Part shown: piece after piece, positions 4,816 through 13,596 of the stretch
Position numbering within the stretch: position 1 is the stretch's first letter
Layout of the letters: every line of letters starts with the position of its first letter
Origin: Bacilli bacterium
GTDB taxonomy: Bacteria; Bacillota_I; Bacilli_A; RFN20; CAG-826
Reading direction: 5' to 3'
Assembly (NCBI GenBank): GCA_022641095.1
Contig: JALCDB010000007.1
Coordinates: 1 to 64,000, forward strand
DNA: 64,000 nucleotides
Translations under genes and position numbers: made by a program
Notes under the pieces: generated by a model
Told to the model about the DNA's origin: nothing
The model's input: the letters and a program-made list of their open reading frames with translations, nothing else
Database searches by the model: none

Positions 4816-5259
4816 CTACTTTTCCTCTTTCTCCAACAGTTCTTTCAAAGCGGTCCAACCCATGGTCGCGCAATGGATGCGGGCGGCTTGCTTTCCGGTG
4901 TTGAGGAAAACGATGGCCTCATCAAGCACGGAAGCGTCATATTCTTTTTCCCCGATCATGTTGAGATACTGCTCAATCACGTACTGAGCTTCCTTGAAAG
5001 TCATCCCGATGACGCGATCGCAAAGAATATCGGTCGAAGCGGATGAGATCGTGCATGCGACGCCCTCCCAGCGGGCGTCGGCGATCTTGCCATCCTTAGC
5101 CAAGAGATACACATCGAAATCGTCGATGCAGTTCGTGCTGGAGGCGTGAAGCGAAAGATAACCGCTTTCCGTCGGTTTGCTCTTATGGCGCGGATTCTGG
5201 TAATGGTCCATGATGATTTCCCTCATCATTTGGGGAGTGACTTCAATTGAAGTAGGCAT
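4816..5259 (-). CDS. sufU: SufU-type sulfurtransferase/scaffold protein
   Basis: The chosen start at 5259 gives 147 residues ([10 protein letters not shown]...). It follows a strong AAGGAG with a 7-nt spacer, whereas the longer upstream reading overlaps sufS by 62 nt. Zn/sulfur-ligand positions are recognisable: C-x-D in TNCIDD, Cys in GVACTIS, and Cys in RIHCAT near the C-terminus. In Bacillus, SufU is a zinc protein that accepts sulfur from the SufS cysteine and passes it on. The first motif is CID rather than the common CGD, but the ligating Cys and Asp are kept. It overlaps the sufS end by 17 nt. Confidence 0.93.
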
Positions 5260-8048: not shown

Positions 8049-8113
8049 ACAATACGATAGACCATCTATAGACTACCTACTTTTAGCGTGTGGGCGCGCG
8101 CCTTAAGAAGTTG

Positions 8114-8142
8114 TTGCACCAATTCTCTTTAGAGAATACACT
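8114..8142 (+). promoter_or_regulatory. Predicted promoter of the lipoprotein pair with palindrome in the spacer
   Basis: TTGCAC (8114-8119), a 17-bp spacer and TACACT (8137-8142). The spacer holds a perfect inverted repeat, ATTCTCT-TT-AGAGAAT (8122-8137), running into the -10. A repressor bound there would block RNA polymerase. The transcript would begin near 8149, before the AAGGAGGA of the lipoprotein gene. Confidence 0.6.
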
Positions 8143-8182
8143 TAACTCGCACCATTTTGAGCAAGGAGGAACGAGTCCACAC

Positions 8183-10273
8183 ATGAAAAAATCAAACTGT
8201 GCGCTCGGATTGATGGCGCTGCTCACTGCAGCGGTAGGCTTATCGGCCTGCAACACGCCTGCGACAGACAACAACGGTAACATCTTCACGTACACGGATG
8301 CCGCCGGAAACGTCGTTGGTTACAACGCCACTGATCTATATGACAGTTACCAAACTACTGGTTCGTCGCTGTCAACAGAGTTCGACAAAGTCTACGAAGT
8401 CCTGATCAGGCACTATTACGATAAAGGCGACGCAACCACGCTTGAGTCCCTTAAGAAAGCCTCTCGCAAGGACGTCGAAACCGACAAAGCGACCGCAACC
8501 GACAACGCCAAGACCAATAACACTTCCTTCCAAGAGGAATTCGAAAAGATCCTATCCAAGCACAACGTCAAGAACGTTGACGAGCTTTTCGAATACTACC
8601 TCTATACCGAAGAGAAGAGCAAATTCGAGTCCAATTTCTACAGCAACTACATCGATGCCATGAAAGATGGCGCGACCGCTGCTAACGGCGGGCTCAGCAC
8701 CGATGACAACGATAAGTTGTTCATGCCGAAAAACGATGATACCTATGGCATCGGAAACGCCGGCTGGGTCAAAGAGCAAATGCCTTACGTAATCCGCCAT
8801 ATTTTGGTGAAAGTCGCCGCCAGCGACAAGGAATACACCCAAGGCACGCTTACCGAGGACAAGACTTCGGGAACCGATACCACCCACCAAGCGACCAAAC
8901 TCGCCACCGTCGTGGCTCGTCTTGCGGGAGCCAGTTTGGCCAGCGACGGAACCTTGACATCCTACAGCGACGACACCCGCCCGAACTTCGGCAATTTGGC
9001 TTATGCCCTCAGCGAAGACGCCAGCAGCGCCGAGGCTTATGGCGAAACCAGCCTGATGACGAAAGTCATGTCGAACAACCTCGTTCCCGAATTCAAATTG
9101 GGCATTTACGCCTATGAGTCCCTTTTCAACAAAAGGGAGCAGACCACCGCTTATGGGGCGAAAAACGTCTACCGCGTGGCCCCGGGTCTTAAAGAATCGG
9201 CCACTTCCCTAGCCGACGTCGATTCGACCCAATCCCTTGAAGACGGGTCGCTTGTCTCAAGCGCGAACGTGTACGGCGAAACCTATGACGATGGTTCCTC
9301 CACCGGCATCGGCCAAATCCCCTTCGGCGCCGCGGTCGCCCTTATGAAAGCCGCCACGATCGAAACCGATAGCGCCAATTTGCCGGTCTACGAAGGCAAC
9401 AGCGCTTTCTACCCGCGCAACATCATCTTCAACAAATATTTCAACAAACGCAACGTCTGCGTCATCACGCCGAACGACATTCCTTATAACCTTACAAATA
9501 ACGACACCTACACTGGAGAAACCTTCGACGGGACCCCTTCAACCGCTTACGAGGCCCTTCCGGGCTTCCAAGTCAACACGACCGACGTCCTTCCGGGCTT
9601 TGCCCATAACGTCCTCACCGACAGCGAGGGACAGATCATTTTGGTCGCCCGCGCCGGAACATCCAGTTACCAAGGCGTCCATTTCATGGTCATCCAACGC
9701 GACGCGCTGAGCCAATACGACACGACGTTCGACAGCGCCGCCAAAAAGGTGAATGAGAACAACAGCGCCGTCGACGGCACCGCGACCCTCAGTCAGTACT
9801 ACACCACGAAAATCCCAGGACTTTCCGGATATCCGACGACTTCTACCGGCGAAGCCCTTACGACCTACGTCAACTACAACCGCAATACCACCACGGACTA
9901 CAACGATCGCTCCGGCGACATCGTTAGCGGGGTCAAATCCTACAATGGCGCGCTTAGCACTTATCTCTTTGAGAAACTCATCGGCGGCCTTGACGGAGTC
10001 GGCAGCCTAACTTTCCAGGATTCCGATTTCAAAGCCACCATCCTGAACTATTGCAAACAAAAGAGGCAAAGCACCAAAGACGACAGTTTCACCACTTGGT
10101 CAAACGATTGGAAATCCTATGCCGAGATGCTTCAGGCCCAAAACGAGGCTCGCGATCTCCGTGACGCCAACGGCAATGGGCGCCTTATCAGCGAAGTTTG
10201 TGCCATCGGTTACCAGAATCATTCTTCGTCCGAGTGGCAAAAGGGAGGAGCTTGCTATTATGTCAAAGGCTAA
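8183..10273 (+). CDS. Large lipoprotein with parvulin-like (PpiC/PrsA) motif
   Basis: 696 residues from the ATG at 8183. Start chosen because a lipoprotein signal peptide begins there (MKKSNCALGL..., lipobox LSAC, Cys23) and AAGGAGGA lies 12 nt upstream; an upstream GTG at 8090 would bury the signal peptide. Around residue 200 the segment PYVIRHILVKV resembles the first strand of parvulin PPIases (xRHILV), and GVHFMVIQRD later resembles the closing strand, with a long Asp/Thr/Ser-rich insertion between. The plan fits a PrsA/SurA-like extracytoplasmic foldase anchored in the membrane, but the catalytic residues are not confirmed. It is coupled to a second lipoprotein. Highly acidic, codon use typical of the window. 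Confidence 0.7.
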   Translation: MKKSNCALGLMALLTAAVGLSACNTPATDNNGNIFTYTDAAGNVVGYNATDLYDSYQTTGSSLSTEFDKVYEVLIRHYYDKGDATTLESLKKASRKDVETDKATATDNAKTNNTSFQEEFEKILSKHNVKNVDELFEYYLYTEEKSKFESNFYSNYIDAMKDGATAANGGLSTDDNDKLFMPKNDDTYGIGNAGWVKEQMPYVIRHILVKVAASDKEYTQGTLTEDKTSGTDTTHQATKLATVVARLAGASLASDGTLTSYSDDTRPNFGNLAYALSEDASSAEAYGETSLMTKVMSNNLVPEFKLGIYAYESLFNKREQTTAYGAKNVYRVAPGLKESATSLADVDSTQSLEDGSLVSSANVYGETYDDGSSTGIGQIPFGAAVALMKAATIETDSANLPVYEGNSAFYPRNIIFNKYFNKRNVCVITPNDIPYNLTNNDTYTGETFDGTPSTAYEALPGFQVNTTDVLPGFAHNVLTDSEGQIILVARAGTSSYQGVHFMVIQRDALSQYDTTFDSAAKKVNENNSAVDGTATLSQYYTTKIPGLSGYPTTSTGEALTTYVNYNRNTTTDYNDRSGDIVSGVKSYNGALSTYLFEKLIGGLDGVGSLTFQDSDFKATILNYCKQKRQSTKDDSFTTWSNDWKSYAEMLQAQNEARDLRDANGNGRLISEVCAIGYQNHSSSEWQKGGACYYVKG

Positions 10274-11990
10274 TTTCAAAAAGAAAACCATTACCAGCGT
10301 CCTGGCGCTTCTTTGCGCCGGAGCGATGTTAGCAGGCTGCGACGACGTCGTCGCCCGCCCAACCTCGGATTTCTATGATGAGCAGATTATTTCCGCGCCT
10401 GATAAGATCACCAACAACACGATGAGCAAAATCTACGATGCCATCGTTAGCGAAGGCGACACCAACAGCGCCAAAGTGCTTAACAACATCCTTCTCATTT
10501 ACAGCCAGTCGATCTATGGCTCGTTCTATGGGGAAGGCAACCTTTACGATGTCGTGAACAAAGGCAGCGCGGCCGATCTTCAGGCCTACGCCGATAAATA
10601 CGCCATCTATGAAGGCAGCGCGAAGAAGGTTATGGCCTTCTACTACGCCGTCGTTGACAAAGTCGAGGCGACTTTCCTCACTTACGTCAAAAACACCTCC
10701 TACCAGATTCGCAGCGTTTTCTTTGAAAAGAAATTCTACGATACCCAAGTCAAGGCTTTCTACAAACTCGGCAGCATCGACGAAGGCGACTTCAAAGTGA
10801 AGCAGGTCGTCGGCGATATCCGCCTCAGCAACCACAAGAATGGATCTATCGATCCTATCGACGGGGTCTACTTCAACGACCTCTTCAAAACCTACGAAAA
10901 CTACATCAAAGATCAGATCCTTCCGGATGTTTACCGGACGGAACTTGTCGCCCAATACCTCTATAGCGAGAACTACCTTGCGATCGGCAACAGTTACGCG
11001 CGCAAGGTCGACTACATCAAACTGACCGAGAACAGCAAACACGCCGACGCGGTCAGCAACCTCATGGAGGCTTACTGCAAAGACGTCATCGCGAGCGGAC
11101 TCGACATGGACGTCTATGGTTTCCCCTTCCTCGGCAACCTGTACAAGGGCACGACTGAGAACTTCACTGTCGAGCAGCAAACGATCGCCGACGCGATTTA
11201 TAGCGACGCCAACTGGACCCCAAGCACCTACACCTATAACGATGGCATTCTTGGATCGCGCACTCGCGTCGTATGCGACGAAACCACCCTCGGCGGTTAT
11301 CTTTCCGATTATATGAAGTTGGTCGACAGCACCAACCGCGAAAGCGAAAAGGAAGTCGAGACCATCCGCAACGACTTCACCAACTCCGGGTCCTATACCG
11401 CTCTAGCCGGCCTCCATATCAAGGAGCAATCCTTGATGGCGACCAACGAGACCACTTCCGACTGGTACACCACCGGATCGCTCGATGGGATTCCAAGCGA
11501 TTATTCGAAGCGCCTTTTCAAAGGTTCGATCGCTTCCAACGGCGTCGATCATGGCGCTTGGAACGAAACCTCAGACAAATACGATGACACTGACCTCGCC
11601 AGTATCTCGGGCACGACTTACGGAGCCTACGTGGGCAACCACTACTACCTTGTGTCCAAGAATCCGCAGACCGGCGACGCCTATCCTTATATCCTTAAGG
11701 ATGGCAGCAACTTCTACTTGGTCATGGTCAATGAGGCCGTGAACTCGTCGAAGATCAGCAAAACCGATGAAGATCATGGATACGATTTCATGAAGTCCCA
11801 TACCGATGACGAGCTCTATGCCGGGATCTACGCCGAATCGATTGCCCGCCAAGTCGCCTACAGCATGTCCACCAGCGAGACCTACAAAGCCAGTTCCAAC
11901 CAGCACTGGGTCGAGCAAATGGCCATCACCTACCACGACACCACGGTTTACGATTATTTCTTAGCCACGTTCCCCGATCTCTTCGATTAA
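10260..11990 (+). CDS. Second lipoprotein of the pair, unknown function
   Basis: 576 residues from the ATG at 10260, which overlaps the preceding gene by 14 nt and is preceded by GGAGGAG at good spacing. The signal peptide is MSKANFKKKT... with lipobox LAGC (Cys27). The mature part is alpha-rich at the start (residues 30-200), reminiscent of the N-terminal chaperone part of SurA/PrsA proteins, and contains no parvulin motif that I can see. Tyr, Asp, Ser and Lys are abundant. The tight coupling suggests that the two lipoproteins act together on the outside of the membrane, probably in folding or surface-protein handling; this is inference. Confidence 0.7.
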   Translation: MSKANFKKKTITSVLALLCAGAMLAGCDDVVARPTSDFYDEQIISAPDKITNNTMSKIYDAIVSEGDTNSAKVLNNILLIYSQSIYGSFYGEGNLYDVVNKGSAADLQAYADKYAIYEGSAKKVMAFYYAVVDKVEATFLTYVKNTSYQIRSVFFEKKFYDTQVKAFYKLGSIDEGDFKVKQVVGDIRLSNHKNGSIDPIDGVYFNDLFKTYENYIKDQILPDVYRTELVAQYLYSENYLAIGNSYARKVDYIKLTENSKHADAVSNLMEAYCKDVIASGLDMDVYGFPFLGNLYKGTTENFTVEQQTIADAIYSDANWTPSTYTYNDGILGSRTRVVCDETTLGGYLSDYMKLVDSTNRESEKEVETIRNDFTNSGSYTALAGLHIKEQSLMATNETTSDWYTTGSLDGIPSDYSKRLFKGSIASNGVDHGAWNETSDKYDDTDLASISGTTYGAYVGNHYYLVSKNPQTGDAYPYILKDGSNFYLVMVNEAVNSSKISKTDEDHGYDFMKSHTDDELYAGIYAESIARQVAYSMSTSETYKASSNQHWVEQMAITYHDTTVYDYFLATFPDLFD

Positions 11991-12057: not shown

Positions 12058-12477
12058 ATGAAAGACGTCTTCTGCCGCATCATCGCCGGGGAAATACCTA
12101 CCATCAAGGTTTACGAGGACGACGATGTTTTGGCTATTCTCGACATTTCCCAAACGACGAAAGGCCACACCCTCGTTATGCCAAAAGTTCATTACGACAA
12201 CTTCTTGGCCTGTCCGCAGGATCTCGTTCACAAAGTATATGACGTCGCCCAGCGCATCGGCCGAGCCGAGGTCGAGATATTGGGCGCCAAAGGCGTCAAC
12301 ATCCTTACGAACGTCGGCGAAATGGCAGGCCAGTCGGTACCCCACTTTCACGTTCACGTGATCCCACGCTACATCGGCGGGGAAGGCGGCTTCCGAATCA
12401 CGATGAAGGGCCAAGACACGAGTTGCATGGATTTGCCCTTATTGGCCCAAACGATTTCCAAAGGCCTCAAGAAGTAG
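12058..12477 (+). CDS. HIT-family nucleotide hydrolase (Hit/HinT-like)
   Basis: A 139-residue histidine-triad protein. The catalytic triad is H96, H98 and H100 in PHFHVHVIPR, and the N-terminus has the family-typical FCRIIAGEIP. HinT-type enzymes hydrolyse nucleoside phosphoramidates such as aminoacyl-adenylates. GGAGG lies shortly before the ATG. It is a single-gene unit, followed by the small-RNA locus. Confidence 0.93.
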   Translation: MKDVFCRIIAGEIPTIKVYEDDDVLAILDISQTTKGHTLVMPKVHYDNFLACPQDLVHKVYDVAQRIGRAEVEILGAKGVNILTNVGEMAGQSVPHFHVHVIPRYIGGEGGFRITMKGQDTSCMDLPLLAQTISKGLKK

Positions 12478-12482
12478 TTTAT

Positions 12483-12512
12483 TTGCCAAACCCGATATGT
12501 CTATGCTAATAT
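12483..12512 (+). promoter_or_regulatory. Predicted extended -10 promoter for a small RNA
   Basis: TTGCCA (12483-12488), 18-bp spacer, and TGC-TAATAT with TAATAT at 12507-12512 (extended -10 TG motif). No ORF with a ribosome-binding site follows; a strong terminator ends the transcript about 130 nt later. Confidence 0.6.
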
Positions 12513-12518
12513 GTGTTT

Positions 12519-12650
12519 GTCGATAGGAAGCGCGCTTCGGGGAGAGAAGGCGGAGAGTCTGCTAAGTTCGGAAGAGCCTACGGATGCGAAACCTCCCCCC
12601 GCGAAGAAAAAACCACCTCAATCCGACGGAGGGAGGTGGTTTTCTTTTTC
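12519..12650 (+). ncRNA. Candidate structured small RNA, family unknown
   Basis: About 130 nt between a good promoter and a strong terminator, with no coding potential. The 5' CUUCG-GGGAG strand can pair with CUCCCC...CGAAG, enclosing an inner hairpin with a GUUC-GGAA-GAGC tetraloop stem and an internal loop. The GGAA tetraloop recalls SRP RNA, but the diagnostic SRP helix-8 sequence is absent, so I do not assign it. It could be a trans-acting regulatory RNA. It is not an obvious riboswitch, because the next gene is on the opposite strand. Confidence 0.5.
12609..12648. terminator. Bidirectional terminator between small RNA and yhaM
   Basis: An 11-bp stem AAAACCACCTC (12609-12619) / GAGGTGGTTTT (12633-12643), with T-rich tails on both strands. 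It serves the small RNA on plus and yhaM on minus. Confidence 0.85.
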
Positions 12651-12651
12651 T

Positions 12652-13596
12652 TCAGTCGTCCTTCGAATAGAGAGGCTTATAGAAATAGTGCCCATCCATC
12701 GTGAAGATTTTCCCCGTCCATTCGCCCGGCTTAACGGGGGCGTAAGCCTTGTCGAGGATGTTCATTTTGGCATCCATGTCATCGATCATCGAGAGGACGA
12801 GGGCCTCCCGGGTCTCGGGGGGAACCGGCGAGCCGAAATCCGGTTGGTTATGGTGCGAAAGGACCATGTGCTCCATGATGAGCGGGATTTCTCCGCTCAT
12901 GCCAAGTTCCTTGGCCGCGATACGGACTTCCGCCTGCATGATGGATATGTGGCCCAATAGTTTCCCTTCAAGCGTGAACTGGGTCGCCACGGGCCCGGAA
13001 AGCTCGATAGTCTTGCCCAAGTCGTGGATAAGCGCGCCCGCCACCAAGACATCGCGGTTGAGCGTGGGATAGAGCTTGCAAACCATCTCCGCATGGTCCG
13101 CCATGCAAAGCGAGTGGTAGAGAAGCCCGCTCGCGAACGCATGATGGTTATGCACCGCGGCGGGATAAGTCACGTAACTGTCGTGGAACTTGTCGATCAA
13201 ATGCTCAGTGAGTCTCTTGACGTCCCCGTTCTTTAAGGAATCGACATACGCGTTCAGTTTCTTCTCAAGCTCTTCCCTAGGAACTGGGGCCGAAGGAACG
13301 AAACGAGTGAAATCGATATTGTCCTGATCCACGTGGGAGCCGGAGAAAATCTTCATCTGCAAGGAACCCCGATAGGCGTTAACCTCGGCCGAGATCATGA
13401 CGATTTGCCCCGGCACGAAGAGGTCGGCGTCGCCCTCTTCGATGTCCCATTTTTTGCCCAGCATCGTTCCCGAAGCGTCTTGCAGGTTGACGTTCAGGTA
13501 GTTTCGCGATTGGGAGGTGACCCCTTTATCCACCGTGACGACGAGATAAGGGGCCGTCACTTTGTCGCCATCTTTGAGTTCCGCGATATTGTTCAT
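12652..13596 (-). CDS. yhaM: 3'-5' exoribonuclease YhaM
   Basis: 314 residues from the ATG at 13596 (preceded by GGAGG, 7-nt spacing), the same length as Bacillus subtilis YhaM. The N-terminal OB-fold spans about 1-90 and the HD phosphohydrolase domain follows, with the motifs HNHHAFASGLLYHS and ALIHDLGKT. YhaM is a 3'-5' exonuclease acting on RNA and single-stranded DNA. The ATG overlaps the recX stop in ATGA, so it is translated in the flippase-GT-recX-yhaM operon. Confidence 0.93.
   Translation of the reverse strand: MNNIAELKDGDKVTAPYLVVTVDKGVTSQSRNYLNVNLQDASGTMLGKKWDIEEGDADLFVPGQIVMISAEVNAYRGSLQMKIFSGSHVDQDNIDFTRFVPSAPVPREELEKKLNAYVDSLKNGDVKRLTEHLIDKFHDSYVTYPAAVHNHHAFASGLLYHSLCMADHAEMVCKLYPTLNRDVLVAGALIHDLGKTIELSGPVATQFTLEGKLLGHISIMQAEVRIAAKELGMSGEIPLIMEHMVLSHHNQPDFGSPVPPETREALVLSMIDDMDAKMNILDKAYAPVKPGEWTGKIFTMDGHYFYKPLYSKDD

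Follow-up and report, generated by a model that had tools for sequence, protein, structure and literature searches.

In the window (the whole 64-kb stretch of DNA that was analysed), positions 12483 to 12650 hold an element that is, on balance, best read as a candidate gene for a lineage-specific small noncoding RNA. The element comprises a promoter-like site, a stretch without coding potential and a terminator, and it is conserved in a sister species. RNA polymerase would start near 12518 at the extended −10 promoter and run to the end of the terminator near 12650. The resulting RNA of ~130 nt would most likely act in trans, either pairing with mRNAs or binding a protein. We infer the transcription, the length and any function of this RNA from the DNA sequence. 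Because no Rfam family matched it and it was found in only two sister species, the element is most probably a regulatory RNA of an ordinary kind and of recent origin. A preliminary description had proposed a stand-alone, structured small RNA of no known family. The noncoding character, the conservation in a second species and the lack of an Rfam match all favour the first and last parts of that proposal, but the label "structured", the tetraloop and the argument drawn from the terminator were not borne out.

The hit-yhaM locus, promoter-like site and terminator

12058–12477, plus strand: HIT-domain gene (PF01230), upstream neighbour of the element
12483–12512, plus strand: promoter-like site, TTGCCA, an 18-nt spacer and a TG-extended −10 box TAATAT, found by sequence scan and kept in the sister species
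12486–12520, no strand assigned: inverted repeat CCAAACCC...GTGTTTGT around the −10 box, with two mismatches in the window
12607–12650, no strand assigned: bidirectional intrinsic terminator, stem 12613–12619/12633–12639, A-tract before and U-tract after, from sequence and fold
12652–13593, minus strand: YhaM-like gene with OB-fold and HD domains, convergent and downstream, whose open frame reaches 13665

The flanking protein genes converge, which confirmed the described location between two genes, and the element fills the 174-nt gap between them. The downstream gene was named from its domains and from gene order, and is presumed to be yhaM-like since YhaM-type 3'-5' exoribonucleases combine an OB-fold with an HD domain. 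The hit-yhaM pair is kept in most of the genus (37 genomes), where the gap is usually 14–138 nt long and, for the most part, either empty or occupied by a terminator; two genomes have a gap of ~900 nt that holds another gene. Most relatives lack the additional 110 nt that separate the terminator from the stop codon of the HIT gene, and promoter and body thus come as one unit, which may have been gained in one small lineage or lost elsewhere. On the other side of hit, two large ORFs lie next to each other at 8090–11990 of the window. Both have N-terminal signals that resemble those of lipoproteins; the second ORF is the neighbour of hit across most of the genus, and no Pfam family matches it.

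The extended −10 motif noted earlier is indeed present, and it is retained in the sister species (Bacilli bacterium UW_MP_BACIL6_1, a MAG referred to here as G024) with a single change, C to A just before the −10 box. The promoter of its own that a stand-alone small RNA needs would thus be this candidate site, conserved in two species, and transcription is expected to start near 12518–12520. In this region, 2 such promoter-like sites were found in 1.6 kb versus 1.4 expected by chance, so their presence is not unusual. The inverted repeat around the −10 box is perfect in G024 (CCAAACCC/GGGTTTGG), and comparable repeats, with arms of 8 bp and gaps of 10–24 nt, occur 30 times in the 64-kb window; the repeat around the −10 box may be an operator or may have arisen by chance, and neither assignment is secure.

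The terminator consists of an A-tract, a GC-rich hairpin and a U-tract, and on paper works in both directions. Both flanking genes, HIT and YhaM-like, probably make use of it too, and a terminator lies at the same place between hit and yhaM in most relatives. An intrinsic terminator, expected of a stand-alone small RNA, is therefore present but common to the flanking genes, and since it is bidirectional and most relatives have one there, it is not by itself evidence for an RNA gene. The strong terminator of the preliminary description thus exists, hairpin and U-tract included, but it is explained by the flanking genes and fails as an argument for a separate RNA.

These observations bear on an alternative that we consider rather unlikely, in which the element would be the 3' UTR of the HIT mRNA followed by the bidirectional hit/yhaM terminator, the promoter-like site would be fortuitous or weak, and no separate RNA would matter. 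The body follows the HIT stop codon immediately and runs into a terminator as in most relatives, the frequency of promoter-like sites fits chance, and so does the folding of the body. However, the sister species preserves the −35-like and extended −10 elements amid changes at nearby bases, and in most relatives the terminator alone suffices.

Coding potential, fold and conservation of the body

12521–12606, plus strand: candidate RNA body, with predicted outer pairing 12531–12534/12600–12603 and 12539–12544/12593–12598
12564–12579, plus strand: variable patch including the GGAA "tetraloop", with differences between the two species at 5 of 16 positions

No ORF with both start and stop was found inside 12517–12650, and the described ~130 nt without coding potential were confirmed. 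The changes between the two species in the open frame fall 3/3/3 on the codon positions, versus 26 third-position changes and 6 others in the neighbouring HIT gene, which indicates that it is not a protein that is being constrained. A coding ORF was rejected on this codon-position pattern and the missing stop. A small protein read from the ATG at 12511, whose frame both species keep open and free of indels, is accordingly very improbable: the ATG overlaps the −10 box and lies upstream of the expected transcription start, the frame has no stop before the terminator, and 5 of the 6 altered codons are nonsynonymous.

The "structured" label was not supported by predicted energy or by covariation. 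The whole RNA folds with z = −1.39, 25 of 200 shuffles being at least as stable, and the body without the terminator gives z = +0.5 (−0.1 in the sister species), no better than shuffled sequences. Two quite different foldings lie within 0.3 kcal/mol of each other. The covariance check across relatives, run on two sequences, gave nothing in favour of structure, since their consensus contains no compensatory pair and no pair changed on both sides. The foldable body proposed earlier is thus not upheld, and the GGAA tetraloop fails as a feature as well: in G024 the loop is AUGAA and its closing pair is broken.

At the sequence level, the RNA with its terminator shows 7 differences in 130 nt between the window and G024. 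Five of the seven lie within the 16 nt of the variable patch, which was set apart after the data had been seen, leaving 2 in the other 114 nt. For comparison, 49 of the 326 fourfold sites in three neighbouring genes have changed (15%; 0.25, 0.14 and 0.12 per gene). The comparison of 2/114 outside the patch with 49/326 gives P = 3e-5 (Fisher); for the undivided 7/130, P is 0.0005 at the fourfold rate and 0.009 at the lowest plausible rate of 0.12. Ranked by divergence among 114 intergenic blocks, whose median is 7.6%, the whole gap with its 5.7% comes at the 38th percentile; many of these blocks must themselves contain promoters and missed genes. The constraint on the element thus matches that of an average gene and is not exceptional. 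Elsewhere in the window, the 196 nt between called ORFs at 5047–5242 show just 7 differences from the sister species.

It is improbable that the element is instead a cis-acting regulator, in which read-through of the terminator would produce an antisense RNA to yhaM, or transcription would collide with that of yhaM. The arrangement would allow it, as 1–2 nt separate the end of the terminator from the stop codon of yhaM, the gene towards which the candidate RNA runs. However, the terminator is strong, and such an effect needs nothing in the body, yet the body is conserved.

Known families, distribution and possible targets

A search of Rfam 15 (4227 models) assigned the element to no family at the gathering threshold. 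Among sub-threshold matches (E up to 10), the best E was above 2, and nearly all fell on the terminator hairpin. The Rfam search proposed in the preliminary description therefore bears out its statement that no known family fits. The 6S RNA model (RF00013) did not match the element, and 6S identity was rejected, although this model is uninformative here: no genus genome reaches its cut-off.

SRP RNA required closer attention, as RF00169 was found in 33 of the 37 genus genomes and both carriers of the element are among the four without it. The element resembles a small SRP RNA in length and, in one of the two species, in having a GGAA loop. In contrast to SRP RNA, it has no covariance match, no AGCAG-type Ffh-binding motif by the tetraloop and no conserved tetraloop, and its genomic place differs from that of the SRP gene in relatives. 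RF00169 found no match in the window's genome even at E 10. Two relatives were inspected, and each has its SRP RNA gene between serS and tadA; serS and the SRP-adjacent tadA are missing from both assemblies that carry the element; the SRP locus was thus most likely just left unassembled in the two genomes. A diverged housekeeping RNA, notably the SRP RNA otherwise not found in the genome, is on these grounds an extremely improbable identity, and we rejected it. That both assemblies lack the same serS-SRP-tadA block is odd; serS is also missing from the assembly of another genome, G027.

A DNA search of the 37 genus genomes detected the element in just two of them, the window's genome and G024 (93%), both draft assemblies. 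A covariance model of the two copies (R1) gave only chance-level hits in 279 genomes of the order (best E 0.0065 per genome), with alignments that look unrelated, and with filters off it had no match between hit and yhaM in other genus members. Beyond the sister MAG, a pattern scan of contigs from the genomes of ~85,000 species yielded just two matches, both in unrelated bacteria and attributed to chance. In phages there was one chance match, and in plasmids and viral contigs none; the sensitivity of these contig, phage, plasmid and viral searches is that of exact patterns and blastn.

With its promoter-like site, ~130 nt of noncoding sequence, intrinsic terminator and narrow distribution, the candidate resembles lineage-specific intergenic small RNAs of Bacillota, which act in trans and carry an intrinsic terminator. 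It differs from them in that no conserved exposed pairing motif was found. In a target scan of 448 conserved start regions (~1.17 Mb of genome), pairing was weaker than with 24 shuffled controls; the scan was crude, with rough gene calls and an energy without an accessibility term. A CsrA sponge, considered because several GGA motifs were seen by eye, was dropped as the loop GGA is lost in G024. If transcribed, the element would add one more small RNA to those that no Rfam family covers, from a lineage represented here only by draft assemblies.

Other RNA candidates between hit and yhaM

Two further genus members, G007 and G029, carry a different RNA candidate in the hit-yhaM gap, on the same strand as the element, and another, G004, may carry a third.

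G007, C1:197742-197829: candidate L090, promoter, body and terminator
G029, C3:64084-64179: candidate L091, promoter, body and terminator
G004, 153-nt gap between the HIT and YhaM-like genes: candidate L060, TTGACA immediately at the stop codon of the HIT gene, and terminator

Differing candidates at one syntenic site would offer a small test case for the origin and divergence of small RNA genes between fixed neighbours; beyond this and the possible transcription of the element, there is little general consequence.

The promoter-like site of the RNA in G007 and G029 reads TTGACA-17-TAAATT/TATATT. The two bodies fold alike when each is folded on its own (z = −3.4 in G029 and −1.3 in G007), with a compensatory two-pair replacement in the closing stem (GG/CC versus AU/AU, with a shifted bulge), an identical hairpin CGCGACGAGUCAUUGCG with a GAGUC loop, a variable third hairpin and then the terminator. 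No Rfam match was found for this RNA, which occurs in only those two genomes of the order. As a structured RNA candidate it is better supported than the element itself. The candidate in G004 is weak; it has a stem GGCGGAUC/GAUCCGC and z = −1.8.

The RNA of G007 and G029 resembles the element in place, strand and the order promoter-body-terminator and, by eye, in a UAGGAA leader and a GAGUC hairpin. Local alignments of the element with the two copies were not significant (P 0.44 and 0.51), and the model of their RNA did not find the element with filters off; homology between them was thus rejected on both counts. Likewise, no sequence homology was found that joins the element to the G004 candidate. 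We give a small chance to a single fast-evolving RNA gene at hit-yhaM, with the element, the G007/G029 RNA and perhaps the G004 candidate as orthologues that have lost their sequence similarity and kept a common plan. The plan seen in G007 and G029 is that of a closing stem, a hairpin with the GAGUC loop and a third hairpin that varies.
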